The notes under the pieces are model-generated. The model was not told the DNA's origin. It made no database searches and worked only from the letters and a program-made list of their open reading frames with translations. A stretch of DNA of 10,283 bases from Candidatus Thorarchaeota archaeon (GTDB taxonomy: Archaea > Asgardarchaeota > Thorarchaeia > Thorarchaeales > Thorarchaeaceae): positions 1-10,283 of the forward strand of contig JAEORI010000224.1 of assembly GCA_016840965.1 (NCBI GenBank), written 5' to 3'. Both the position numbers and the translations under genes were made by a program. Below, piece by piece: positions 1 through 10,228 of the stretch. The number at the start of each line of letters is the position of its first letter. Within the stretch, counting starts at the first letter, position 1.

Positions 1-3000
1 ATTCTCAGTACCCTCAGCTCCAACAACATGGAAGTTTACCATGTATGAGTCTGGAACTTGACGGGTGAAGCCACATGAGGCGTCCACTACGAGGATAGAA
101 CCTTGGTGAGCTGCGTACTCTGCCGCAGGATCAACATTCAGTGTTACATCAATACCGCTTACTGAGCCATCTGCTATCACGATGTCTCCATCGGTAGCCT
201 TCTCCCAGACAGTAATGGTCACTCTGAAGTCAATACCACCAGCAGCATCGAACTGAAGTGTTGGATCATAATTGAACACTCCTGTCATTGTGTCCGTACT
301 GCCAATCCTCATAGTCATGAGGTTACATGGGTCTGTGTAGCGAGACACATGTGCAAGGTAATCACCAGTTCCTTCAGTGACGTTCCAGTAGTTCAGATAG
401 GTATCTGCATTAAGGTCATCCCAGTCGAAGAGGCGAACCATTGGATAGCTTCCTGTCAGAGCTGCGTTATGAGTGACTTGGATTGTCACATAGTTAGCAG
501 CCCAGAAGTCGGCTTCCTCAGCTGGAGTCATATAGTCAGTGAGCACAAACCAACCGGGTCGATTAACAAATGGTCTGAAGTTACCATCAAAGTACCGGTA
601 GCTTGTCTCATCGAACACGATCTGACGCTGCATCCTGTAGTACCATGGATTTATGGTGTCAAAAGCAGCTGTGTCATAGGATGAACCTTGAAAATCTTCT
701 ACGTTAACGTTCACCGTGTATGAATCTCCACGTTCGACCGTACCGAAGAAGACACTGCTTGTCTCCAATCCGACAGGAGTTGTCCATGTGGGCTCGTAAT
801 AGATACCAAATGGATCCCAATCTGGAATCCAGTATGCCCAGGCTTCAGCAATCTGATCTCCGTAGTTGGCAAAGCTGTTAGATTCAAAGACGTATTCGTC
901 TGTTGCACCTGTTTCGATTGCTTCGCATGCTGCATCAGCGTTCACCAGACCATGACCTTGGGAGAATGGATCTGTTCCCATATCAGTCGCAGTAGAAAGG
1001 AGTAAGTCCTTAATCTGCTGTGGTGTTGGATCTACGCCATGAGCAGTATGGTAGGCTTCTACGATAAGGGCTGCAACTCCCGCGGCAACTGGACAAGCAA
1101 GACTTGTACCCTGCCACCAGAAGTAGGTAGCTCCAGTACCAACCCAAGCTTGTGGGAATGGTTGTGGACTAGCACCTCTGTAACCAGGAGCCATCACATC
1201 AGGCTTGACGATACCAGTGAAACCGGGACCGTGGGATGAGAAGTAAATCTCTTGGCCGTCAGGTTGCCATGGACTATAGGTACCAGTAGCTCCAGACCCT
1301 ATCCAGTATTGATTTGCTATGCTAGCACCTACTGATACGACAGAGAATGATGCTCCAGGGGAACCAGCAGTACCATAGTCAGCACCTTCGTTGCCTGCTG
1401 AGAAGATGAACAGTGTTCCGGGATAAGCTGGATCAAGTACGCCAGGTACTGATGCTATATCATAGACCATTGTGAAGTATCTTATTTGGAGGTACGCAGC
1501 ACCAGGACCCCAACCCCAAGAGTTGGAAACCATGTGTGCCTTGTGTGATGGACCATCACCAATGTACTCCCAATAGCCAGAAGTTTCATTGAGATGGAAT
1601 CCAGCTGCCCAAAAGTCGGCCATGATATAACCACCAGCGGAGAGACCCTTGGTGAAAATCAGGCTAGCACCAGTTGCGACACCTGGAAGCTTGAAGAGCG
1701 TTCCATTTCCATAGATGTTGTGGTCGAATACACCACGTGATGCAACAGCAGTTGATGTCCAGTGTCCATGGTTGTTATCATCAGGTGTTCCTCCTGTGAA
1801 CAGGACATTGAATGCAAGCCAGTCATCGGTGATGCAACTGAATAGTCCTGGGTCATCGTATCCTAAGTCGTCTAGGTATCCTAATTCGTCGCGCGCCCAG
1901 CTTAGTGAGCCCAGACCAAGGTCAACAGTACCGTCATCATCAATGTCTGCAACAAGTACATTGTTCGCGCCGTTGAAGACATAGCCTTCTGCAATGTCAT
2001 CGACGAAGCTCCAGTCCATCATAGCACTGATGTAGTTTCGATCAGCAGTGACATTAAGGTCTATTGACTCCCAATAGTAGGCTTCCATGAACATGGTTGT
2101 AAATGCAAGCGTACCATTCCAGTCGATAATTACATCTCCCTCATAGATCATTGCAGGAGCAAACAGCCTGGAGTATCCACCTGTGTAAGTGCATGAACGA
2201 CGTTCCTGTACCCAACCAAAGGTGTAGTTGTTTGCAGTAGGAGTAGGAATCTCCCAGTCATTCCATATGACGTTCTGTATAAACTCGGTGAAGTTGTTAA
2301 TTGAATAGAGACCGCCTAAGTAGTTCATCCACCAGAGAAGAGGAAGACCACCACCACCATTGTTTATGATGGGATCCCAACCAGAAATGTCGACATAATA
2401 TTTGCCGCCCATCTCATAGGTCAGGAGATTTCCAGCTTCGAGCCATGCAGTGACGTTTTCAACAGGTGTGCAATTTCCTATGACCATTGCTGTTAGACCA
2501 AAGCTTGAGGGGTCGTATGACATCGGAGTCGTACCGTTGTTATACTCTGCCCCAATAAGGTCAGGTTGACTGAAATCAACACCAGAGTCCATGACAGCAA
2601 CGATTGCACCAGAGCCATCATATTTACTGGCATATGTTCCGGTAGCACCTACTATGTCCCGGATATTGTACATATCTGGGGATGCAAACTCCTCTACAGC
2701 TTCGATAGGTGTTGGCTCAAGATACATGTCTGGCATGATATATAATACATCATTCCGAGCTTCAAGCATCTTAAGATCAAACTTAGATGTGACATCAATA
2801 GATGCAATCCTTACTATTTTAAGATCCATCTGCCAACGCAATTTTCCTATTTTTGCAATAGCACTTGCGTCCGCATCCGGTGAAATGTATAGTAAGAGCT
2901 TGATGGCACCATTTGCTGTAGTGACGACCTTATCATCTAATAGTCCTGTTTCAATATAGGACGCTAAGATGGGGTCCATCTTGCCGTTTGCAAAGTCGTT

Positions 3001-3165
3001 CATAAGACGGTCCGCCCATTTCTCTTCGAACATCGCCTCATAATCGACAGGGCTTGGTGCTACCTGGGAGTCAACCTTGGCTGATGGTGTGAATGGTGCA
3101 AACACCATGCTCATGAAGAACACACCACAAAGAAGTAAAACCGCAGTTTTTCTCAGGTTATTCAT
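1..3165 (-). CDS. Secreted pyrolysin-like subtilisin-family serine protease (S8), C-terminus cut by the window edge
   Basis: The frame is open for 1055 codons from ATG 3165 to the window edge; I translated it throughout and found no stop or frameshift. Residues 1-32 form a signal peptide with a hydrophobic core. Residues ~50-155 resemble an I9-type inhibitory prodomain. Catalytic Asp193 lies in AVMDSG, His466 in NNHGHW, the oxyanion Asn592 in SAGNEG and Ser688 in QGTSLACP; SNSWG (547-551) fits the substrate-binding strand. Asp and His are 273 residues apart, against roughly 30-60 in ordinary subtilisins. Pyrolysin and tripeptidyl-peptidase II are known to have long insertions here. The insert contains a D-x-D-x-DG-x-x-D loop (407-415), probably calcium binding. 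Residues ~755 onward are beta-rich and continue beyond the edge, so any membrane or surface anchor is unseen. A GAGGAG site lies 11 bases before ATG. Expected role: extracellular or cell-surface protein degradation. Family certain; substrate unknown. Confidence 0.93.
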   Translation of the reverse strand, partial: MNNLRKTAVLLLCGVFFMSMVFAPFTPSAKVDSQVAPSPVDYEAMFEEKWADRLMNDFANGKMDPILASYIETGLLDDKVVTTANGAIKLLLYISPDADASAIAKIGKLRWQMDLKIVRIASIDVTSKFDLKMLEARNDVLYIMPDMYLEPTPIEAVEEFASPDMYNIRDIVGATGTYASKYDGSGAIVAVMDSGVDFSQPDLIGAEYNNGTTPMSYDPSSFGLTAMVIGNCTPVENVTAWLEAGNLLTYEMGGKYYVDISGWDPIINNGGGGLPLLWWMNYLGGLYSINNFTEFIQNVIWNDWEIPTPTANNYTFGWVQERRSCTYTGGYSRLFAPAMIYEGDVIIDWNGTLAFTTMFMEAYYWESIDLNVTADRNYISAMMDWSFVDDIAEGYVFNGANNVLVADIDDDGTVDLGLGSLSWARDELGYLDDLGYDDPGLFSCITDDWLAFNVLFTGGTPDDNNHGHWTSTAVASRGVFDHNIYGNGTLFKLPGVATGASLIFTKGLSAGGYIMADFWAAGFHLNETSGYWEYIGDGPSHKAHMVSNSWGWGPGAAYLQIRYFTMVYDIASVPGVLDPAYPGTLFIFSAGNEGADYGTAGSPGASFSVVSVGASIANQYWIGSGATGTYSPWQPDGQEIYFSSHGPGFTGIVKPDVMAPGYRGASPQPFPQAWVGTGATYFWWQGTSLACPVAAGVAALIVEAYHTAHGVDPTPQQIKDLLLSTATDMGTDPFSQGHGLVNADAACEAIETGATDEYVFESNSFANYGDQIAEAWAYWIPDWDPFGIYYEPTWTTPVGLETSSVFFGTVERGDSYTVNVNVEDFQGSSYDTAAFDTINPWYYRMQRQIVFDETSYRYFDGNFRPFVNRPGWFVLTDYMTPAEEADFWAANYVTIQVTHNAALTGSYPMVRLFDWDDLNADTYLNYWNVTEGTGDYLAHVSRYTDPCNLMTMRIGSTDTMTGVFNYDPTLQFDAAGGIDFRVTITVWEKATDGDIVIADGSVSGIDVTLNVDPAAEYAAHQGSILVVDASCGFTRQVPDSYMVNFHVVGAEGTEN

Positions 3166-3257
3166 TTTTTATTTTTCTCCTCACGTTTTAAGTGGAGAAC
3201 AATAATATCTTGATTGAGATTCCATTTCCGCATCGATGGAATCTCCTCTAGACGCAT
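3162..3257 (-). CDS. Possible 31-codon upstream ORF coupled to the pyrolysin-like protease
   Basis: On the minus strand an ATG at 3257 follows a perfect GGAGG (3267-3263) by 5 bases. It opens a 31-codon frame that ends in TGA at 3164-3162, overlapping the protease start as ATGA. The peptide begins MRLEEIPSMRKW and ends HLKREEKNKK; it is charged and has no recognised domain. The strong ribosome site and the exact 4-base overlap are what translational coupling would look like, so this may be a leader peptide that controls entry of ribosomes at the protease start. An alternative overlapping frame (ATG 3280 to TGA 3183, 32 codons) has a poorer ribosome-site spacing. The peptide is short enough for the frame to be chance, and only conservation can decide. 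Confidence 0.33.
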   Translation of the reverse strand: MRLEEIPSMRKWNLNQDIIVLHLKREEKNKK

Positions 3258-3315
3258 AAAAACCTCCAAAACTAACCATGCGGTGGTCAGTTCTCTCCTC
3301 TAAAGCGTTCTCCAC
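3192..3315 (-). promoter_or_regulatory. Structured 5' leader of the pyrolysin-like protease gene (nested inverted repeats)
   Basis: Two perfect inverted repeats are nested in the leader. The outer arms GTGGAGAAC and GTTCTCCAC lie at 3192-3200 and 3307-3315. The inner arms GAGATTCCAT (3216-3225) and ATGGAATCTC (3236-3245) form a 10-bp stem with a 10-base loop. Read as RNA, the outer stem encloses the ribosome site and start of the possible upstream ORF, and the inner hairpin lies within that ORF. A 9-base direct repeat (minus strand TAGAGGAGA) recurs at 3242-3250 and 3294-3302. No known riboswitch class is recognised. It could be a leader RNA structure or a pair of protein-binding sites. Confidence 0.4.
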
Positions 3316-3610
3316 GGGTTTGTGATTGCTCATCGTCTGCAATAATGCCACTATTAAGCATTGTGCAAGAATTGTACTACAAAGAACCGTTCATTTCCCC
3401 CCAATACGTCTATATCAAGTTAGTATTCCGTAAACAAGTGTAAAAGGAAACCATAGGATTTATTATATTAAAAAAAGAGTTATGATGTTCGGAAATGACC
3501 TTTGTGTACTTATATACACCACATCGTCAAACGATTTTCGAAAAATTCTATTATTCCATATATTGACTGAAATTTCTTAATTTGATTTGAAGAATCCTAG
3601 TTCGGATTTT
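3316..3610. other. Gene-free stretch between the coiled-coil gene and the protease leader
   Basis: No reading frame of coding character is seen on either strand. The stretch is AT-rich, with an A7 run at 3470-3476, a C6 run at 3397-3402 and several TATA-like sequences. It serves as the 3' flank of the coiled-coil gene, where the minus strand has only short T runs that could end transcription (for example GAATTTTTC near 3547-3539). It is also the upstream region of the protease. No tRNA, snoRNA-like or other RNA gene was recognised. Confidence 0.5.
3509..3517 (-). promoter_or_regulatory. Candidate archaeal TATA box for the pyrolysin-like protease transcript
   Basis: The minus strand reads GTATATAAG, close to an archaeal TATA box, inside the inverted repeat GTGTA-N6-TACAC (3504-3519). 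Transcription from it would start near 3485 and give a leader of about 320 bases that includes the inverted repeats and the possible upstream ORF. Weaker alternatives are minus-strand CTTGATATAG (3419-3410) and an AATATAATA just after a T7 run (3476-3470). The choice between them cannot be made by eye. Confidence 0.3.
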
Positions 3611-4699
3611 TTAGCGAACCATTTTCTTTATCGAGTCAACGATTTCATTCACCATGATAATGGCTCCAATCATTTCGACTTTCGGTTCTTCTCCGTGAGA
3701 ATCACCTACTTCTCTAGCAACTCGAGTCATTGATCGACCTAAACTCTCAATCAATGTAACTAATGCTTGCTTTCCACCATCACTCTGATTGCTTGATTCA
3801 ACTTGAGAGATAAGTTCAACAAGATCAGAAATCACGCTATCAGAAACCTCAGCAGCAGTTTCAGCTCGCCGTCCCAAATCCTCCCATTTCATTTGGGCAT
3901 CTTTTAGTTTGCTTGACAACTCAACAACAATATTATCATCAGCAAAAGCAGCAGGGGATTTGGATGCTCCTTCTGCTGCAAGGCGCAAATCTGCGATTTC
4001 AGTTTCTAGAGATTCAATAAGAGCGTCCTTCATCTTCAACTTCTCAAGAAGACCTTCACTAGGTTTAGGAGCTGCAGCTGGGACTGTCTTAAGCTGTTCC
4101 TCCATTAATGCGAGTGACTTTTCACGCTCACCAACTTCAGCTTTGATTGTTTCAAGTTCTCCTTCAAGTGCAGTAAGTGAGTCTTCCTTTTCAGACAGGA
4201 ACTCGTTGAGTCGTTTATTCTCTGCCTCTAGCTTTTGGAAGGCATCTTTTGATGTCTTTGCTTCCTCCTTTATGCCTCTGAGCTCATCCTGTAGAGAGAC
4301 AAAATCAGGATCAGGTGGTGAGATAACATAGTAGCTAATGATTGAGATAATAACAATAAATGCAGCCACATATATGAGAGAGCTCCAAATAGAGCCAAAG
4401 AAGAAGTTAGTCAGGAGTTGCAGGAAATTTCTGAATGTGGTCGAAGAACCAAAACCTAATAGCTGACCAAATGTAGCATAAAGCACTGCAATCATTGCTA
4501 CTCCAAAGCTAAGGACTCCTATGAGAAGCATAATGTTGCGTTTCAAGGCGTTTTGAGGAAGGTGCCGCTGGTACAAGAACAACAAGACCGACAGCGTTAG
4601 TAAAGGAATAACGTAGGGCAAAGAAGCAACAACGTCATCCATGGGATTACTAAATGTAACAAGTACGCCATAACCTATGGATGTGATATAATCAGTCAT
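3611..4699 (-). CDS. Membrane protein with three N-terminal helices and a long cytoplasmic coiled coil, function unknown
   Basis: I start this 362-residue protein at ATG 4699, which has GGAGG (4711-4707) 7 bases upstream; an in-frame TTG at 4723 would add eight residues that include this ribosome site, so it is less likely. Membrane helices are predicted at ~24-43, ~55-76 and ~108-127. The basic loop after helix 1 (Q-R-H...K-R) and the acidic/basic segment after helix 3 put the C-terminal part inside the cell. Residues ~132-205 and ~217-245 are heptad-like, Glu/Lys/Leu-rich coiled coil, split by an Ala/Pro linker. The rest (~255-362) is helical and ends IVDSIKKMVR. The outside loop between helices 2 and 3 contains R90-N-F-L93. 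I do not recognise the family. It could be a scaffold, a sensor or a membrane-shaping protein. The gene stands between two protease genes, read in the same direction as the left one but 445 bases from it. Confidence 0.88.
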   Translation of the reverse strand: MTDYITSIGYGVLVTFSNPMDDVVASLPYVIPLLTLSVLLFLYQRHLPQNALKRNIMLLIGVLSFGVAMIAVLYATFGQLLGFGSSTTFRNFLQLLTNFFFGSIWSSLIYVAAFIVIISIISYYVISPPDPDFVSLQDELRGIKEEAKTSKDAFQKLEAENKRLNEFLSEKEDSLTALEGELETIKAEVGEREKSLALMEEQLKTVPAAAPKPSEGLLEKLKMKDALIESLETEIADLRLAAEGASKSPAAFADDNIVVELSSKLKDAQMKWEDLGRRAETAAEVSDSVISDLVELISQVESSNQSDGGKQALVTLIESLGRSMTRVAREVGDSHGEEPKVEMIGAIIMVNEIVDSIKKMVR

Positions 4700-4746
4700 A
4701 GAGAATCCTCCAGTGTGAAACAAGAACCTGAATCCTCTTGGAGGAT
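4700..4746 (-). promoter_or_regulatory. Leader with alternative pairings around the ribosome binding site of the coiled-coil gene
   Basis: The minus-strand leader reads, in order, ATCCTCC (4746-4740), AGAGGATTC (4738-4730) and GGAGGATTC (4711-4703), then ATG 4699. ATCCTC pairs perfectly with the nearby GAGGAT (6 bp, 3-base loop). ATCCTCC pairs perfectly with the ribosome site GGAGGAT (7 bp, 28-base loop). The two pairings exclude each other: one leaves the ribosome site free and the other hides it. This is the layout of a translational on/off switch, though the stems are short and the transcript start is not known. Confidence 0.35.
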
Positions 4747-4827
4747 AAAACTATTCTTTGTATTGCTTTACGAAGAAGAAGGATATGTCTGGCTACTCAG
4801 ACCCTTGCAGTGAGCCCAAGTAGCGTA

Positions 4828-5118
4828 TCACTTTCTCCATAGAGCAGCTTTTTCGACTTCATGGTCGGTTATCGCAATTTCAAGCGCTTTTAGAAATCTT
4901 GTTGCCTCATCGATTGAGAGAAGAAACGAACCCTTGACATTTCTATCTTCGCCTATCGACAGACGAATTTTTCCATCATTCACCCAGCCCTCAGAAGCCT
5001 GCTCTGGCATGCTTAATTGAAGCTCCAACCATGTTCTTCGGGTTTCCTTTGTTTCACGGTCCTCGAAGAAATGTTTTAGCTGAAGACGTCTCTCATATGA
5101 TTGCTGTTTTTCACCCAT
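4828..5118 (-). CDS. Small soluble protein of unknown function (96 aa)
   Basis: ATG 5118 is preceded by GGAGTG about 10 bases upstream, and the frame ends at TGA 4830-4828. The N-terminal ~27 residues are highly charged and probably helical. Then come three likely beta strands (WLELQLSM at 30-37, KIRLSI at 50-55, GSFLLSI at 63-69) and an amphipathic helix (~70-92, beginning IDEATRFLKALEIAI). There is no signal peptide, membrane segment or cysteine, so it acts in the cytoplasm. The strand-strand-strand-helix order is reminiscent of small nucleic-acid-binding or dimerising folds, but no family motif is present and I assign no function. It lies 128 bases upstream of the coiled-coil gene in the same direction, so the two could be co-transcribed, and it is divergent from the site-1-protease-like gene. 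Confidence 0.75.
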   Translation of the reverse strand: MGEKQQSYERRLQLKHFFEDRETKETRRTWLELQLSMPEQASEGWVNDGKIRLSIGEDRNVKGSFLLSIDEATRFLKALEIAITDHEVEKAALWRK

Positions 5119-5305: not shown

Positions 5306-8224
5306 ATGCCAACTATCAGCAAATCCTTGTATCGCCGTTTTGCAGCTATTCTGCTTCTGAGCTTGCTATTCACACCGATTGCCATCTTTGGAACAGGAAT
5401 GGAAGATGCTGTGGAATATCAAGCTGATAAAATTAGACCAGAATTATCTCAGGCATTGAGTAATATGAAATCTGACAGTTACATCTCAATCATTGTAGAA
5501 TTTCCAGATACATTTTCAGCTGACGAAATGTTAGAAAGCATACAACTTGCAGGTTTGGAAAGTGTCAGCATAAGATACGCATTTCACCTGATTCCAATGA
5601 TTTCATTATCCATCAGAGTTGATGAGATTAATGAACTTTCTAAAGTGAAGGATATTGAAGAAATTCACTTAAACCAGAAAAGGCAGTTGATTGAGAACTC
5701 TGTGCCGCAAGAAAATTATGTCTTGGCCGAAAATGGAAATGGATATGTTCATTTTGATTCGATTCTGAGTGCTGACCAGTTGTGGGCAGAGGGAATCAAT
5801 GGTACTGGTGTAACAATCGCAGTCTTGGATAGTGGTGTATGGGGAGAGCATCCAGATCTTCAAGACAGGTTAATTGGATTCAAGGATTTGATTAATGGAC
5901 AAGATGACATGAATCCAGCAAACGGGATAGATGCCTATGATGATAATGGACATGGAACAGCATGTGCGTGGAATGCAGCAGGTGATGGAACAGCAAGCAG
6001 CGGTGTCCTTAAAGGAATTGCACCTGGAGCTGACATATTAGCAATTAAGGTTCTTGATTCTGCTGGTGCCGGTGAGGATGCTACTATTGCGCAGGGCATT
6101 GAGTTTGCCATTGAACAGAATGTGGACGTCATAAGCCTCAGTCTTGGAGGAGAGTGGATGGAAAGCACTTTCCTAGTTGAAGCATCGGTAAGTGAGATTG
6201 AAAGTGCAATTTCCGCAGGAATTTCAGTAGCTGTGGCCGCAGGAAATTCAGGTCCAGCGGCATTTACAATAAACTCTCCTGGTATCGCTGAGAAAGCCAT
6301 AACTGTTGGATCGTCGTACGGTGATAGTGGTGTTGTGGCATTCAGTAGCGTTGGCCCAGTATTGAGAACGAGAACTGATCCAGCTGGCTATACTGTAAAA
6401 CCGGACATTGTTGCACCAGGATATCTTGTAGTTTCAGGAAGAGGAAATAACGTTAATCCAATAGAATACCCACCATATAACAGCAGTCAGTTTGGGTCAA
6501 GCTATACTCGCTGGTCTGGAACTTCAGCCTCTACTCCATTGGTGGCGGGCATGATTGCGCTTCTCATGCAAAAACATCTAGCTCTCGCCCCTATTGAAGC
6601 AAAAGCAGCTCTAATGAACTCGGCTACAGATCTTAAAGTAGATCCGATGATTCAAGGATGGGGATTAGCCAATGTTTCACGTGCATCGCAACTTCTCAAT
6701 AGCACATCACGGGATATTACAGTAATGGCTCCAAGGAGCATACCGACCCTCCCGTGGAGCAAACAAGTGCTTATTGTAGGTGATGACCGCCCGCCTCAGA
6801 ATGTAACTATCATCTCAACACAATCTGTTGGCATAGTCGATATTTCGATTTCTGGGAATGCAAGCCTATTCCTAGACACAAATATAGATCAAATTTGGGT
6901 ACCAACCGGTTACTCATATTTTGGGATTGAACTCAAGCTACCTGAAAACACTCCACTCTCATCTGCAGGGGTTTATGCAGGACAACTCAATCTAACTCAA
7001 AGTAGTAACGTTATAGCATCTATCGACATCAGATATTCAATCACAATCTTCGGTGGTAGATTGATGGTGGATATGGAACATCATTCTAGTGGTCCAAGTG
7101 GCGATGTAGATGATCCATCGTATTATGGTTACTTCACAGAATATCTTAGAGAGCAAGGAATGGTTGTATCAGAGTTTGGCGATGCTGAGGACCTTTCACG
7201 AAGTTATATCGATTTAAACACTATTTCGAGTGCTGATGTATTCATGATTATGGATACTGAAATCTCATACTACCAAAGCGAAGTAACAGCTTTACATACC
7301 TTTGTTGAAAATGGGGGAACATTACTAGTCTTCTCGGAATTCTACAATCAGGTTACTGATGAGGCATCATTTGCGTTTGATGACTATAATGCAATTCTTG
7401 AACCATTTGGAATACAATGTGAAAAACGTACAATTGGAGCAGGTATTGATAATACAGGAATAGTCTATGGAGCTGATCATGGTGGATTTGTCGAGAACGA
7501 TCCACTAATGAATGGCGTGAGCAACCTTTATGTTCTTCAGGGCAGTACCCTTCAAGTTAACCCTGAAGTGTCTAATGCAAGAGGCTTGTTCTGGGAAGAT
7601 GCTGAAAGAACACATGCAATTGTAGCCACTGCAGAGTATGGCCGCGGACATGTCTTTGTGATTTCAGATGGGTCGACCTTGTACGATGATGTTCTATATG
7701 ATGCAATAAATGCAGGTGCTGATAATCTACGGCTTCTAAGAAACTTAGCCACTGCAATCATACCGGAAGCCCCGAGAATTTATGATGTTGACTTAAGTGT
7801 GGGTGGTTTTGGTCAAGAGGCGAATGTGACCGCATTCATTTTTGATGAGGATCTTGAGGATGTTACAATAAGTGTGATTGGACCACGTGGAGAGAACCTC
7901 ACAGGAACAATTATTGAAGAGCTAGGTTACAAATTTTCGACCAACTTTATCTTTAATGGAGGTGGTTTCTTCTCAGTCCAAGTAAGGGCGACTGATTCGT
8001 TGGGAAATGTGAGACTCTTCCAGAAAACGATTTTAATTCCAGTTGATGCAGCTGATGATTTAGTAATAGTGTCAGTCATTTATGCACTCCTTGGTGTTGT
8101 AGGAATTGGTCTAGGATATGTCATTTTAATAAGAGTTAGGAGTCGACCAAAGAGACCTCAGCGACCAATAGAACCACGACAAGATGAAGATGAATGGGAA
8201 CTCCCACCACCATCTATCGAATAG
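5306..8224 (+). CDS. Membrane-anchored subtilase with the full domain order of eukaryotic site-1 protease (MBTPS1-like)
   Basis: This 972-residue protein has a signal peptide (1-30) and an I9-type prodomain (~55-128) ending at K125-R-Q-L128, a plausible self-cleavage site. The S8 catalytic domain (~158-450) has Asp175 (AVLDSG), His216 (GHGTA), oxyanion Asn314 (AAGNSG) and Ser407 (SGTSAS). A beta linker follows (~460-580), then a Rossmann/GATase-like domain (~583-820). From memory, that domain resembles human S1P: GGRLMVDMEHH, a Y-x-x-Y-L-R motif with YLREQG, DTEISYYQSEV and GGTLLVFSEFYN match the S1P segments around MYQHLRSMG, DSEEEYFPEE and GLSLVIFSDWYN. After a beta domain (~825-910) come one membrane helix (~919-943) and a 29-residue basic/proline-rich tail, giving a type I protein with its active site outside. 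S1P activates membrane-bound precursors by cleaving after R-x-x-L. Length is close to S1P (about 1050). Protease identity is certain; S1P kinship is strong; an S1P-like role is inferred. Confidence 0.95.
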   Translation: MPTISKSLYRRFAAILLLSLLFTPIAIFGTGMEDAVEYQADKIRPELSQALSNMKSDSYISIIVEFPDTFSADEMLESIQLAGLESVSIRYAFHLIPMISLSIRVDEINELSKVKDIEEIHLNQKRQLIENSVPQENYVLAENGNGYVHFDSILSADQLWAEGINGTGVTIAVLDSGVWGEHPDLQDRLIGFKDLINGQDDMNPANGIDAYDDNGHGTACAWNAAGDGTASSGVLKGIAPGADILAIKVLDSAGAGEDATIAQGIEFAIEQNVDVISLSLGGEWMESTFLVEASVSEIESAISAGISVAVAAGNSGPAAFTINSPGIAEKAITVGSSYGDSGVVAFSSVGPVLRTRTDPAGYTVKPDIVAPGYLVVSGRGNNVNPIEYPPYNSSQFGSSYTRWSGTSASTPLVAGMIALLMQKHLALAPIEAKAALMNSATDLKVDPMIQGWGLANVSRASQLLNSTSRDITVMAPRSIPTLPWSKQVLIVGDDRPPQNVTIISTQSVGIVDISISGNASLFLDTNIDQIWVPTGYSYFGIELKLPENTPLSSAGVYAGQLNLTQSSNVIASIDIRYSITIFGGRLMVDMEHHSSGPSGDVDDPSYYGYFTEYLREQGMVVSEFGDAEDLSRSYIDLNTISSADVFMIMDTEISYYQSEVTALHTFVENGGTLLVFSEFYNQVTDEASFAFDDYNAILEPFGIQCEKRTIGAGIDNTGIVYGADHGGFVENDPLMNGVSNLYVLQGSTLQVNPEVSNARGLFWEDAERTHAIVATAEYGRGHVFVISDGSTLYDDVLYDAINAGADNLRLLRNLATAIIPEAPRIYDVDLSVGGFGQEANVTAFIFDEDLEDVTISVIGPRGENLTGTIIEELGYKFSTNFIFNGGGFFSVQVRATDSLGNVRLFQKTILIPVDAADDLVIVSVIYALLGVVGIGLGYVILIRVRSRPKRPQRPIEPRQDEDEWELPPPSIE

Positions 8225-9494
8225 GACCAAAGGTTGATTCTAGATACTCGCGTAATCGTTCATGGCGAGGTTTGAGAAGAGGCTTTTCATCCAGAATAGC
8301 TCCAGACTCAACTCTTTCGAGTATCTCATAACCAAGACGAGCACCCATGCGGGACGATATCACTTGGCCTCCAATAAGACGACCATCTGCGGCTGTAACC
8401 AATGCCATCTTGGCAAATTCAGTAGGATCTTCCAAATAATGGACACTCGTTGTAAGAGCCATTTCTTTAGCAGTTGTTGTAGAATGTCCTATAACCACAA
8501 TATCTGTATCAAAGATTCTGTCATACTGGAAACGTCTTAGAGTGTCATTGTATAATTTAGTACCGCCAGCCGCAATTACTCCAGCTTGGCGACCAGCCCG
8601 CGCTGCAATACTGCCAATTGGCATGAGGAGAGGTTTTCCAGTCAATGAGTCTTTCATCTCCACGCAATCGCCAACTGCAAATACATCATTGGCTGAAGTC
8701 TTCATGGTTTCATCTACCACGATTCCGCCTAGCTGTCCAATCTTCACCCCTAGTTTTTTTGCGACCTCAGTGTTTGGTTTTACTCCAGTCATGAAGAGAA
8801 CCGCATCACAAACAATTGCATCATTACCTAAAGTAAGTCCTTCTACATGTTTATTACCAATAATGGAAGTTGGTGATTTCCCAACATGTACGTCAAGATC
8901 CTCTGGAAGTCTTGATTGAAGTTCGACACTCATTGGTTCTTCCAGTTGTTTTCTCATGAGTCGAGAACGTACAATCAGGTGAACGCTTTTACCAAGTGAA
9001 TGAAGTCTCTCAACAGTTTCAAGTCCACTGAAACCAGCACCGACGACTGCAATGGAATTCATTCTTGACAACTGTTGTCCGATCTTGCTTGTATCAGCTA
9101 GTGTCTGTATTGTATAGACCCCTACTAGCGTTTTACCTTGAATATCAGGTACAGCAGGAGTGCCCCCAGTCGCAATGATAAGACGATCATATTTGAGAGT
9201 GCTCGCCCCTTTGGGGCTATTAATCTGAATTTGCTTAGACTTAGTATCTCCATCGGTTACTTGAGCGCCTGTTATCAGGGATATACGCTTCTTGGAAAGG
9301 GCGTCAAAAGACCAATCTTCAATTCTGAGGTCAGAAGTATCAGGGAACTCAATTGCCATCGAAGCACCAGGTTTCTTATGAGATTCCAATGTTTCTTCAG
9401 TGATAATAGTGATTTCAGACTTGGTATTGAACATACGAGCAGCTAATGCTGCTGCAGCACCACCGGGACCATATCCAATGATTATAATTTTCAA
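8214..9494 (-). CDS. FAD/NAD(P)-dependent oxidoreductase of the CoA-disulfide reductase/NADH oxidase fold, lacking the redox cysteine
   Basis: The 426-residue protein has an FAD-binding GYGPGG (7-12), a second FAD motif ATGGTPAVP (108-116), the NAD(P)-binding GAGFSGLE (152-159), a third FAD motif AVGDC (273-277) and a C-terminal dimerisation domain (~315-426). That is the normal layout and length of the family. Arg residues just after the second nucleotide-binding strand (VRSRLMRK) suggest NADPH rather than NADH. The family's active-site Cys (about residue 43, in an S-F-x-x-C-x-x-P-Y context) is missing: here the stretch reads SHKKPGASM. The only cysteines are at ~230 and 277. It therefore cannot run a CoA-persulfide cycle and may reduce another acceptor through the flavin, or act as an oxidase. 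It starts with TTG 9494, set by GAGGTGA (9507-9501) 6 bases upstream, and overlaps the preceding gene's stop. Cytoplasmic. Confidence 0.92.
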   Translation of the reverse strand: MKIIIIGYGPGGAAAALAARMFNTKSEITIITEETLESHKKPGASMAIEFPDTSDLRIEDWSFDALSKKRISLITGAQVTDGDTKSKQIQINSPKGASTLKYDRLIIATGGTPAVPDIQGKTLVGVYTIQTLADTSKIGQQLSRMNSIAVVGAGFSGLETVERLHSLGKSVHLIVRSRLMRKQLEEPMSVELQSRLPEDLDVHVGKSPTSIIGNKHVEGLTLGNDAIVCDAVLFMTGVKPNTEVAKKLGVKIGQLGGIVVDETMKTSANDVFAVGDCVEMKDSLTGKPLLMPIGSIAARAGRQAGVIAAGGTKLYNDTLRRFQYDRIFDTDIVVIGHSTTTAKEMALTTSVHYLEDPTEFAKMALVTAADGRLIGGQVISSRMGARLGYEILERVESGAILDEKPLLKPRHERLREYLESTFGPIR

Positions 9495-9507
9495 CTAACC
9501 TCACCTC
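9491..9507 (-). promoter_or_regulatory. Coupled start: GAGGTGA ribosome site and TTGA stop/start overlap
   Basis: The ribosome site GAGGTGA (9507-9501) lies inside the last codons of the upstream gene. After 6 bases comes TTG (9494-9492), overlapped by the upstream stop TGA (9493-9491). The strong site and 4-base overlap fix the rare TTG as start codon and suggest that the oxidoreductase is translated by ribosomes finishing the membrane-protein gene. Confidence 0.75.
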
Positions 9508-10228
9508 TTCGACGTCGCATTATGAGTAGAAAGACGCAACCTGTAATAATGATTGCAGCTCCGACTATTATTACAGTGTTGTCCTGTACAATCGTAAGAG
9601 TTGCGAAATTCGACTCGGTTCCAGGAACTACCTGCCCTATAGCGATTGCGAATACCTCATGATTGCCAAGTTGGAAATGAGAAGGGGTTATTTCGAATTC
9701 ATAGACTCCAGTACTACTTGTAAGAGTGAAATTAAGCCATGGTCCAACTTCGGAATGAAATGCAACATAAACCCTTGATGCAAGATTATATCCTGCCAAA
9801 ACCAACTCACCGGATATTAGATCATTCATTAAGAATCCAACTCTAATAACAGTGCGATCAAGGATAGCACTTGTAAAAGCTAACTGTGGACCTATTTGTG
9901 TAGAGAGTAGAATCAGTGGTAAGTAGAGGACATAGCTTTCAGAGGTTATGTTTGAAGATATGCTGTTTAAAGACGTCGTGCCAATCAGTTCTTCCGGAAC
10001 TGTGATTATGAATTCTCTTTCACCAAGCACTGAAGAAGAGTTCAATTTTTCCAGTGGACCATTAACGACACTCCAAGCAGTTGTCTGAAGGTTCTTTGGT
10101 GTGTCACGATCATTTGTGTAAACATGAATCATCATCGAACCATCATTAAACTCCAGCCAAAGATTCTTCATAACTGGGAGTAACATATCTGTGAGAGTTC
10201 CGGAACCAGCCATATCAACATTCGACAT
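9491..10228 (-). CDS. C-terminally membrane-anchored beta-rich protein, function unknown (245 aa)
   Basis: The frame runs from ATG 10228 to TGA 9493-9491; an in-frame stop two codons before ATG rules out a longer product in this frame. Residues ~20-210 are mostly predicted beta strand with several N-x-S/T sequons (NSS, NIT, NFT). Residues 218-237 form one membrane helix, and the tail is RRRRGEVS. By the positive-inside rule the tail is cytoplasmic and the bulk outside, yet no N-terminal signal peptide is visible (it begins MSNVDMAGSGTL). Either export does not need one, the orientation is reversed as in tail-anchored proteins, or the N-terminus has been lost. A TATA-like box sits at the spacing for a leaderless mRNA starting at this ATG, which supports the start. 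It is the first gene of a two-gene operon with the oxidoreductase. Family not recognised; a structural or ligand-binding surface protein is possible. Confidence 0.8.
   Translation of the reverse strand: MSNVDMAGSGTLTDMLLPVMKNLWLEFNDGSMMIHVYTNDRDTPKNLQTTAWSVVNGPLEKLNSSSVLGEREFIITVPEELIGTTSLNSISSNITSESYVLYLPLILLSTQIGPQLAFTSAILDRTVIRVGFLMNDLISGELVLAGYNLASRVYVAFHSEVGPWLNFTLTSSTGVYEFEITPSHFQLGNHEVFAIAIGQVVPGTESNFATLTIVQDNTVIIVGAAIIITGCVFLLIMRRRRGEVS

Follow-up and report, generated by a model that had tools for sequence, protein, structure and literature searches.

Does an archaeon encode a protease of the kind that activates membrane-bound transcription factors in eukaryotes? Site-1 protease (S1P; MBTPS1/SKI-1, or SBT7 in plants) starts the two-step cleavage by which SREBP and ATF6 are activated: working with SPRING, it cuts membrane-bound transcription factors at R-x-x-L-type sites, and S2P follows. 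The question is raised by a gene in a 10,283-nucleotide stretch of DNA from a Candidatus Thorarchaeota archaeon (contig JAEORI010000224.1; this whole stretch is called the window here), which a preliminary description presented as a complete prokaryotic S1P. We find that the S1P-like architecture of the encoded protein is widespread in Asgard archaea, and that this is not a demonstrated S1P. With moderate confidence, we interpret the protein as a membrane-anchored, self-activating cell-surface subtilase of Thorarchaeota, belonging to an Asgard-wide family with the domain order of S1P.

Domain architecture and likeness to site-1 protease

The gene is a single uninterrupted frame from ATG to stop. 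The structure model of its product (mean predicted local distance difference test score, pLDDT, 76.2; predicted template modeling score, pTM, 0.67) begins with a propeptide-like N terminus and the catalytic domain; an alpha/beta GATase-like domain follows, flanked by a beta domain on either side, and a helix closes the C terminus (Table 1). The preliminary description omitted both beta domains, the one between the S8 and GATase-like domains and the one that follows. It rightly reported an intact catalytic triad: Asp175, His216 and Ser407, together with Asn314 of the oxyanion hole, are unchanged throughout a 37-sequence family alignment (A1), and the protein belongs to the S8 family. The GATase-like domain it placed after the catalytic domain is present as well; by fold and by sequence, residues 583-823 belong to the GIFT/GATase-like superfamily. 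Hydropathy agrees with its single C-terminal membrane helix. The tail behind this helix had been called basic, which holds for its start but not for its conserved acidic and proline-rich end.

An S8 domain, a beta (P-like) domain, a GATase-like domain and one membrane helix make up the layout of S1P, and, compared at the level of domain order, the window protein has all four in place. Structure searches bear out the S1P-type architecture that had been claimed: Foldseek ranks human S1P first for the whole model (9csd; 780 columns, E=5.3e-36) and S1P again for residues 470-828 alone (E=1.1e-14). A VIA alignment to S1P structure 8uw8 covers 584 residues spanning 147..820. Sequence comparison of residues 470-828 with S1P is also significant. 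In one single BLASTP comparison with a C-terminal part of human S1P that takes in the end of S8, residues 450-681 are 24% identical (E=2e-6). Profile-profile comparison with S1P gives 1.2e-5 for Thorarchaeota residues 470-828 and 3.7e-14 for a broader, 16-row Asgard profile.

Table 1. Features of the window, with the basis of each assignment
Feature	Position	Strand	Basis
Coding sequence, 972-aa membrane-anchored S8 peptidase with C-terminal beta and GIFT (GATase-like) domains	5306..8224	+	Open reading frame, Pfam, relatives
N-terminal hydrophobic helix, residues 12-30 (probable signal peptide or anchor)	5339..5395	+	Hydropathy; helix 6-22 in structure model
Propeptide region, residues 41-127	5426..5686	+	Weak Tk-SP_N-pro match at 41-105; helix/strand pattern in model
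Peptidase_S8 catalytic domain, residues 166-453	5801..6664	+	PF00082, E=3.1e-53, cut-off passed
Catalytic Asp175 codon	5828..5830	+	Invariant in family alignment; role from S8 family
Catalytic His216 codon	5951..5953	+	Invariant in family alignment; role from S8 family
Oxyanion-hole Asn314 codon	6245..6247	+	Invariant in family alignment; role from S8 family
Catalytic Ser407 codon	6524..6526	+	Invariant in family alignment; role from S8 family
Beta domain, residues 471-582 (~110 residues), placed like the S1P P-like subdomain	6716..7051	+	Strands in models; inside the stretch aligned to S1P
GATase-like/GIFT domain, residues 583-823, invariant D589-x-x-H592	7052..7774	+	Pfam, alignment, models, profile comparison
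Second beta domain, residues 824-912, ahead of the membrane helix	7775..8041	+	Strands in model
C-terminal membrane helix, residues 919-937	8060..8116	+	Hydropathy; model helix 918-945
Putative cytoplasmic tail, residues 938-972: basic start, EDEWE-PPPSIE end	8117..8221	+	Family consensus; predicted sidedness
Conserved Thorarchaeota neighborhood	1-5118 and 8214-10228		Comparison of 11 loci
96-residue protein, no Pfam family, divergent from the protease gene	4828-5118	-	59-86% identity over 95-96 residues in 10 of 11 loci

A family across the Asgard phylum

A search with residues 480-840 returned 161 proteins at E<=0.001. Among the best 120 of these, the relatives that carry an organism name come from Thorarchaeota, Promethearchaeota and one Odinarchaeota. 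On genome contigs, 12 of the 79 loci kept among the matches listed (L001-L012) match most of the window protein, or match it up to the contig end; by title, ten are Thorarchaeota, one is Lokiarchaeota and one is simply an 'archaeon'. The matches of the remaining 67, which with few exceptions have Bacillota titles, are confined to the S8 half and never extend past residue 490.

Our sampling of archaea and bacteria covered the Asgard phylum and the Bacillota, which we surveyed with two profiles: A3, built from the C-terminal region of the Thorarchaeota proteins, and A5, a broader profile of 16 Asgard beta+GIFT rows (12 from outside the Thorarchaeota group and 4 from within it) that contains no S1P. 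A3 matches 126 of the 227 genomes of the Asgard phylum at E<=1e-6, and A5 matches 221 of them at E<=1e-12. Since a profile match alone does not show an S8 domain, we inspected loci individually. Among 59 loci chosen from the hit lists (20, 19 usable and 20), there are 58 in which one frame encodes S8 and, downstream of it, beta+GIFT; the exception, L120, is cut by the contig end. These 58 loci represent 56 genomes, two of which (G004 and G191) also contain Thorarchaeota-type copies. The window protein is one branch of this wider Asgard S8-beta-GIFT family.

The simplest version of the protein is found in an Asgard group (L116, L117 and L119) whose 810-818-aa frames include a membrane helix and close with a short basic stretch; a search with the L116-type protein gave 8 proteins, and the sole one with an organism name is from a Promethearchaeota. 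Elsewhere the family is more elaborate. In another Asgard group (L111, L112, L114, L123 and L128) the protein ends in a zinc ribbon beyond the membrane helix, with PF13240 above cut-off in L112 and L114 and similar Cys motifs in the others. A subgroup (L113, L118, L124, L217 and L225) has some 420-440 residues between S8 and the beta domain; a text search of L113 for GTS was negative. We also noted a 549-aa relative (P0109), encoded on a 916-kb contig, for which DUF4350 but no S8 family is listed.

In the Bacillota, A5 matches 13 of 299 genomes at E<=1e-8, in 17 places, and A3 matches 6 of 299 at E<=1e-5. Once the 17 places were fetched with their flanks, 19 complete GIFT-bearing open reading frames (ORFs) were found, none of which contains S8. 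A search of viral contigs yielded no relative, and plasmids had no match to the one Asgard beta+GIFT region that was compared with them.

Common ancestry or convergence?

The simplest account of the architecture that S1P and the Asgard family share is descent from one ancestral fusion, although this is not proven. We compared the S1P beta+GIFT region with 1,393 ORFs and their reversals, a set that contains near-duplicates and includes 141 Asgard S8+GIFT ORFs, 4 Asgard and 15 Bacillota GIFT-only ORFs, and 109 S8-only ORFs. At E<=0.001, matches were found in 14 of the 141 Asgard S8+GIFT ORFs and in a single Asgard GIFT-only ORF (1 of 4), the truncated copy of a protein that has both S8 and GIFT. 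At E<=0.01, the S8+GIFT class rises to 40 of 141, the Asgard GIFT-only class stays at 1 of 4, and 2 of the 15 Bacillota GIFT-only ORFs appear (best 0.004). At either threshold there was no match among the 109 S8-only ORFs or the 1,393 reversed sequences; one reversed sequence matched at E<=1. With an S1P query that includes the end of S8, L111 aligned over residues 4-412 of 428 (E=1.3e-5), and the first reversed match came at 0.16. Domain-by-domain comparison with hhalign locates the S1P signal in the GIFT part (E=1.8e-15; score 104.4, against at most 22.3 in 40 shuffles).

Several observations, from sequence comparison and from trees, weigh against this account. The beta domain carries no such signal: its hhalign comparison with S1P gives E=0.11 and a score of 13.8, while the reversed profile scores 14.0 and 40 column shuffles average 11.2 with a maximum of 22.5. 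By BLAST, the S1P beta region alone has one match, at E=0.44; homology of the beta domains by sequence is therefore unsupported. As for the GIFT domain, its resemblance is not specific to S1P. An S1P GIFT profile gives some Bacillota proteins 22.5 bits, which falls among the Asgard values (27.7 at the highest), and the A5 profile finds the ciliary protein IFT52 (E=1.2e-17) above S1P (4.3e-11). In Pfam, four families cover the GATase-like region, all under cut-off: DUF4350 at 610-793 (2.5e-5), ABC_transp_aux (3.2e-4), MBTPS1_4th (2.1e-3) and IFT52_GIFT (0.012). With DUF4350 and ABC_transp_aux ahead of the S1P family, Pfam does not uphold the earlier contention that the post-catalytic region is S1P-like rather than generic. 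Taken alone, residues 583-820 thus match a widespread domain at least as well as S1P (DUF4350 and ABC_transp_aux in Pfam, IFT52 with the A5 profile, and Bacillota proteins by their scores under the S1P GIFT profile), which goes part of the way to refuting an S1P assignment of this region. Even MBTPS1_4th (PF23090) weakly matches a Bacillota GIFT protein that lacks S8 (1.5e-4), so we do not accept PF23090 matches as specific evidence of S1P kinship.

In trees, S1P is represented by animal sequences only, which gives it a very long branch (1.9-3.1 changes per column). The S8 tree (62 rows) has no resolved backbone; S1P, whose branch measures 1.9, groups at 55/77 with a set of 8 fused Asgard proteins, and there is no supported union with the family. 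Under the approximately unbiased (AU) test, grouping S1P with bacterial and Tk-SP S8 domains is not rejected (p=0.147), and a single clade of all fused proteins plus S1P is rejected at the border (p=0.046); this test counts as fused three rows in each of which a GIFT domain was found, and p falls to 7.9e-5 if they are labeled unfused, as they are in the group table of the S8 tree. Fused proteins without S1P as a clade give p=0.084. A clade of S1P with the Thorarchaeota proteins is rejected (p=0.010). A well-supported tree with the S8 domain far from MBTPS1 had been named as grounds for refuting the S1P reading; the S8 tree shows no such well-supported distance, although this one clade is rejected. 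In the GIFT tree (51 rows), where bootstrap has not settled, S1P with Asgard fused proteins gives p=0.168 and S1P with Bacillota p=0.056. A joint S8-to-GIFT tree (31 rows) places S1P on a branch of 3.08 and favors no Asgard group; in neither of these two trees does S1P fall inside an Asgard group. The trees neither demonstrate nor rule out descent of S1P from the Asgard family.

S1P and the Asgard family could instead each have joined a subtilase to a beta and a GIFT domain independently; because both domains are common, the order they share would then be due to chance. Bacillota GIFT domains with an LFDxxH-type motif occur without S8, the GIFT domain is also found in IFT52, OST48 and GH42 enzymes, and such independent assembly is in keeping both with beta domains that share no sequence signal and with the long branch, of no settled place, on which S1P sits in the S8, GIFT and joint trees. 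Against it, S8 accompanies none of the complete GIFT-bearing frames recovered from Bacillota, the top BLAST matches of S1P in the ORF set are mostly S8+GIFT proteins, with L111 collinear over nearly the whole query, and the union of S1P with Bacillota GIFT domains is near rejection when that with the Asgard fused proteins is not. We regard convergence as unlikely.

If the fusion does have one origin, S1P may have been inherited from the archaeal host: a widespread, perhaps near-universal Asgard S8-beta-GIFT membrane protease would have become the Golgi S1P. IFT52 may owe its GIFT domain to that stock as well; judging by the profile match, the origin of this domain may lie near the Asgard proteins too. 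We put this forward as a tentative hypothesis. If true, S1P is no eukaryotic invention, contrary to what is proposed for SBT7 in PMC6713707: the authors of that large subtilase survey, who detected S8A genes in just 2 of the archaeal species they covered, suggest that S1P arose in eukaryotes. In the open-licence literature, which excludes subscription papers and preprints, we found no paper linking Asgard archaea with MBTPS1, site-1 protease or subtilases. An Asgard family with the layout of S1P makes the origin of S1P testable, and offers a simpler enzyme for studying the role of the GATase-like domain.

Two local sequence agreements deserve mention. L116 has VLWDQSH where human S1P has VLWDQYH; Bacillota GIFT proteins have VLFDNTH, so that a motif of this type is not unique. 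Also, an N-x-T at N499 of the Thorarchaeota proteins aligns with human N515, whose mutation hinders S1P maturation according to PMC11231238. We treat this second agreement as chance, because only one of the 12 non-Thorarchaeota rows of A5 (L115) has a sequon in this column and one of the 4 Thorarchaeota rows (L011) lacks it.

Proposed function

The protein would be exported. By analogy with other subtilases, its N-terminal propeptide would chaperone folding and then be removed by the enzyme itself; Tk-SP_N-pro matches residues 41-105 under the Pfam cut-off (E=0.0059), and 7 of the 37 family members match it at E<=0.1. The S8 domain would then cut proteins outside the membrane. From its position and fold, the beta domain probably braces the catalytic domain, as is thought for the P-like subdomain of S1P. 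PMC11231238 places that subdomain at residues 479-616 and reports it as necessary for folding; the beta domain of the window protein may be needed in the same way.

In glutaminase-type GATases the nucleophile is a cysteine at a set place in a motif. The sequence and the family alignment have no cysteine at that place in the GIFT domain, so this domain probably plays no catalytic part and instead docks substrates or partners. The single helix would hold the enzyme at the membrane, and an enzyme so retained would most likely act on membrane and secreted proteins, by processing or shedding them, and not serve nutrition. Conservation of the EDEWE-PPPSIE end across the Thorarchaeota family suggests an intracellular binding partner. 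Taken together, the propeptide, the membrane anchor and the conserved cytoplasmic end point most readily to a cell-surface subtilase that processes or sheds proteins.

Alternatively, the protein could be a common type of archaeal surface subtilase, like Tk-SP, whose extensions are generic and which digests external protein for food; the likeness to S1P would then have no functional meaning. Among solved structures, Tk-SP (3afg) is the nearest relative of the S8 domain in sequence as well as in VIA, and the family profile gives Tk-SP 279.8 bits and S1P 133.0 bits. The junction between prodomain and catalytic domain, 'SADQLWAEGINGTG...AVLDSG', had been cited as a parallel to S1P; it is ordinary subtilase sequence to which Tk-SP aligns, and we discount junction and triad alike as signs of S1P kinship, both being generic to subtilases. 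However, the membrane anchor with its conserved cytoplasmic end, the conserved neighborhood and the broad presence in the phylum would fit a housekeeping role better than a dispensable exoenzyme, and we find the digestive reading doubtful.

A true S1P orthologue, the same gene by descent with the same first-cutter role in intramembrane proteolysis, is very improbable: the full architecture matches and PF23090 is listed for two Thorarchaeota members (P0097 and P0099) and exceeds its cut-off in 11 of 227 Asgard genomes and in none of 14 controls, but it reaches only 18.0 bits (cut-off 27) on the window protein and weakly matches a Bacillota protein without S8, PF23094 (MBTPS1_3rd) exceeds its cut-off in 0 of 227 Asgard genomes, none of the 37 members has PF23094 or PF23001 (the S1P N-terminal domain) listed at E<=0.1, a weak Tk-SP_N-pro match standing in place of the latter, the catalytic domain is most like Tk-SP, the beta domains have no detectable sequence signal, and the S1P plus Thorarchaeota clade is rejected. 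With that rejection and a generic GIFT match, the initial identification as a prokaryotic S1P is unsupported, and the findings speak to the protease itself rather than to regulated intramembrane proteolysis as a pathway.

Gene neighborhood

We compared the surroundings of the gene in 11 loci (L003 was left out, and several loci end short of the place in question). The conserved order is a large second subtilase, an LMBR1-like protein, a 96-residue protein, the protease gene, an FAD oxidoreductase and a surface protein. The LMBR1-like gene, which encodes a coiled-coil membrane protein, and the 96-residue gene are found in all 11 loci, the latter as a 40-residue match in L004. The oxidoreductase is found in 8 of 11 and the surface protein in 7 of 11. 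Matches to the second subtilase occur in 10 loci, but that in L007 overlaps the S1P-like gene itself, leaving 9 of 11. A PADLOC scan produced generic subtilase matches and weak defense-protein matches only.

Comparison with known systems

S1P and the window protein share propeptide, S8 domain, beta domain, GATase-like domain, membrane helix and short tail, in this order, along with the triad and oxyanion residues. They differ in that the catalytic domain of the window protein is nearer Tk-SP, a second beta domain precedes its membrane helix, its tail is of another kind, its family has no match to PF23001 or PF23094, and identity in the aligned C-terminal part is low. Tk-SP of Thermococcus kodakarensis shares the catalytic domain and, weakly, the propeptide; it aligns only to residues 40-486 of the window protein, and the aligned part has no GIFT domain or membrane anchor. 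Among GIFT-type proteins (IFT52, OST48/WBP1, DUF4350, ABC_transp_aux and the GH42 domain), no known context includes a subtilase, and the Bacillota GIFT frames that we checked have none. A further parallel lies in the other Asgard S8-beta-GIFT subtilases (L110-L129, L214-L233 and L264-L283): they share the domain order and, in 18 of the 19 proteins listed from outside the Thorarchaeota group, a C-terminal membrane helix predicted by hydropathy, but their beta+GIFT regions are only 18-28% identical to that of L112, two checked members end in a zinc ribbon, and others bear the long insert ahead of the beta domain.

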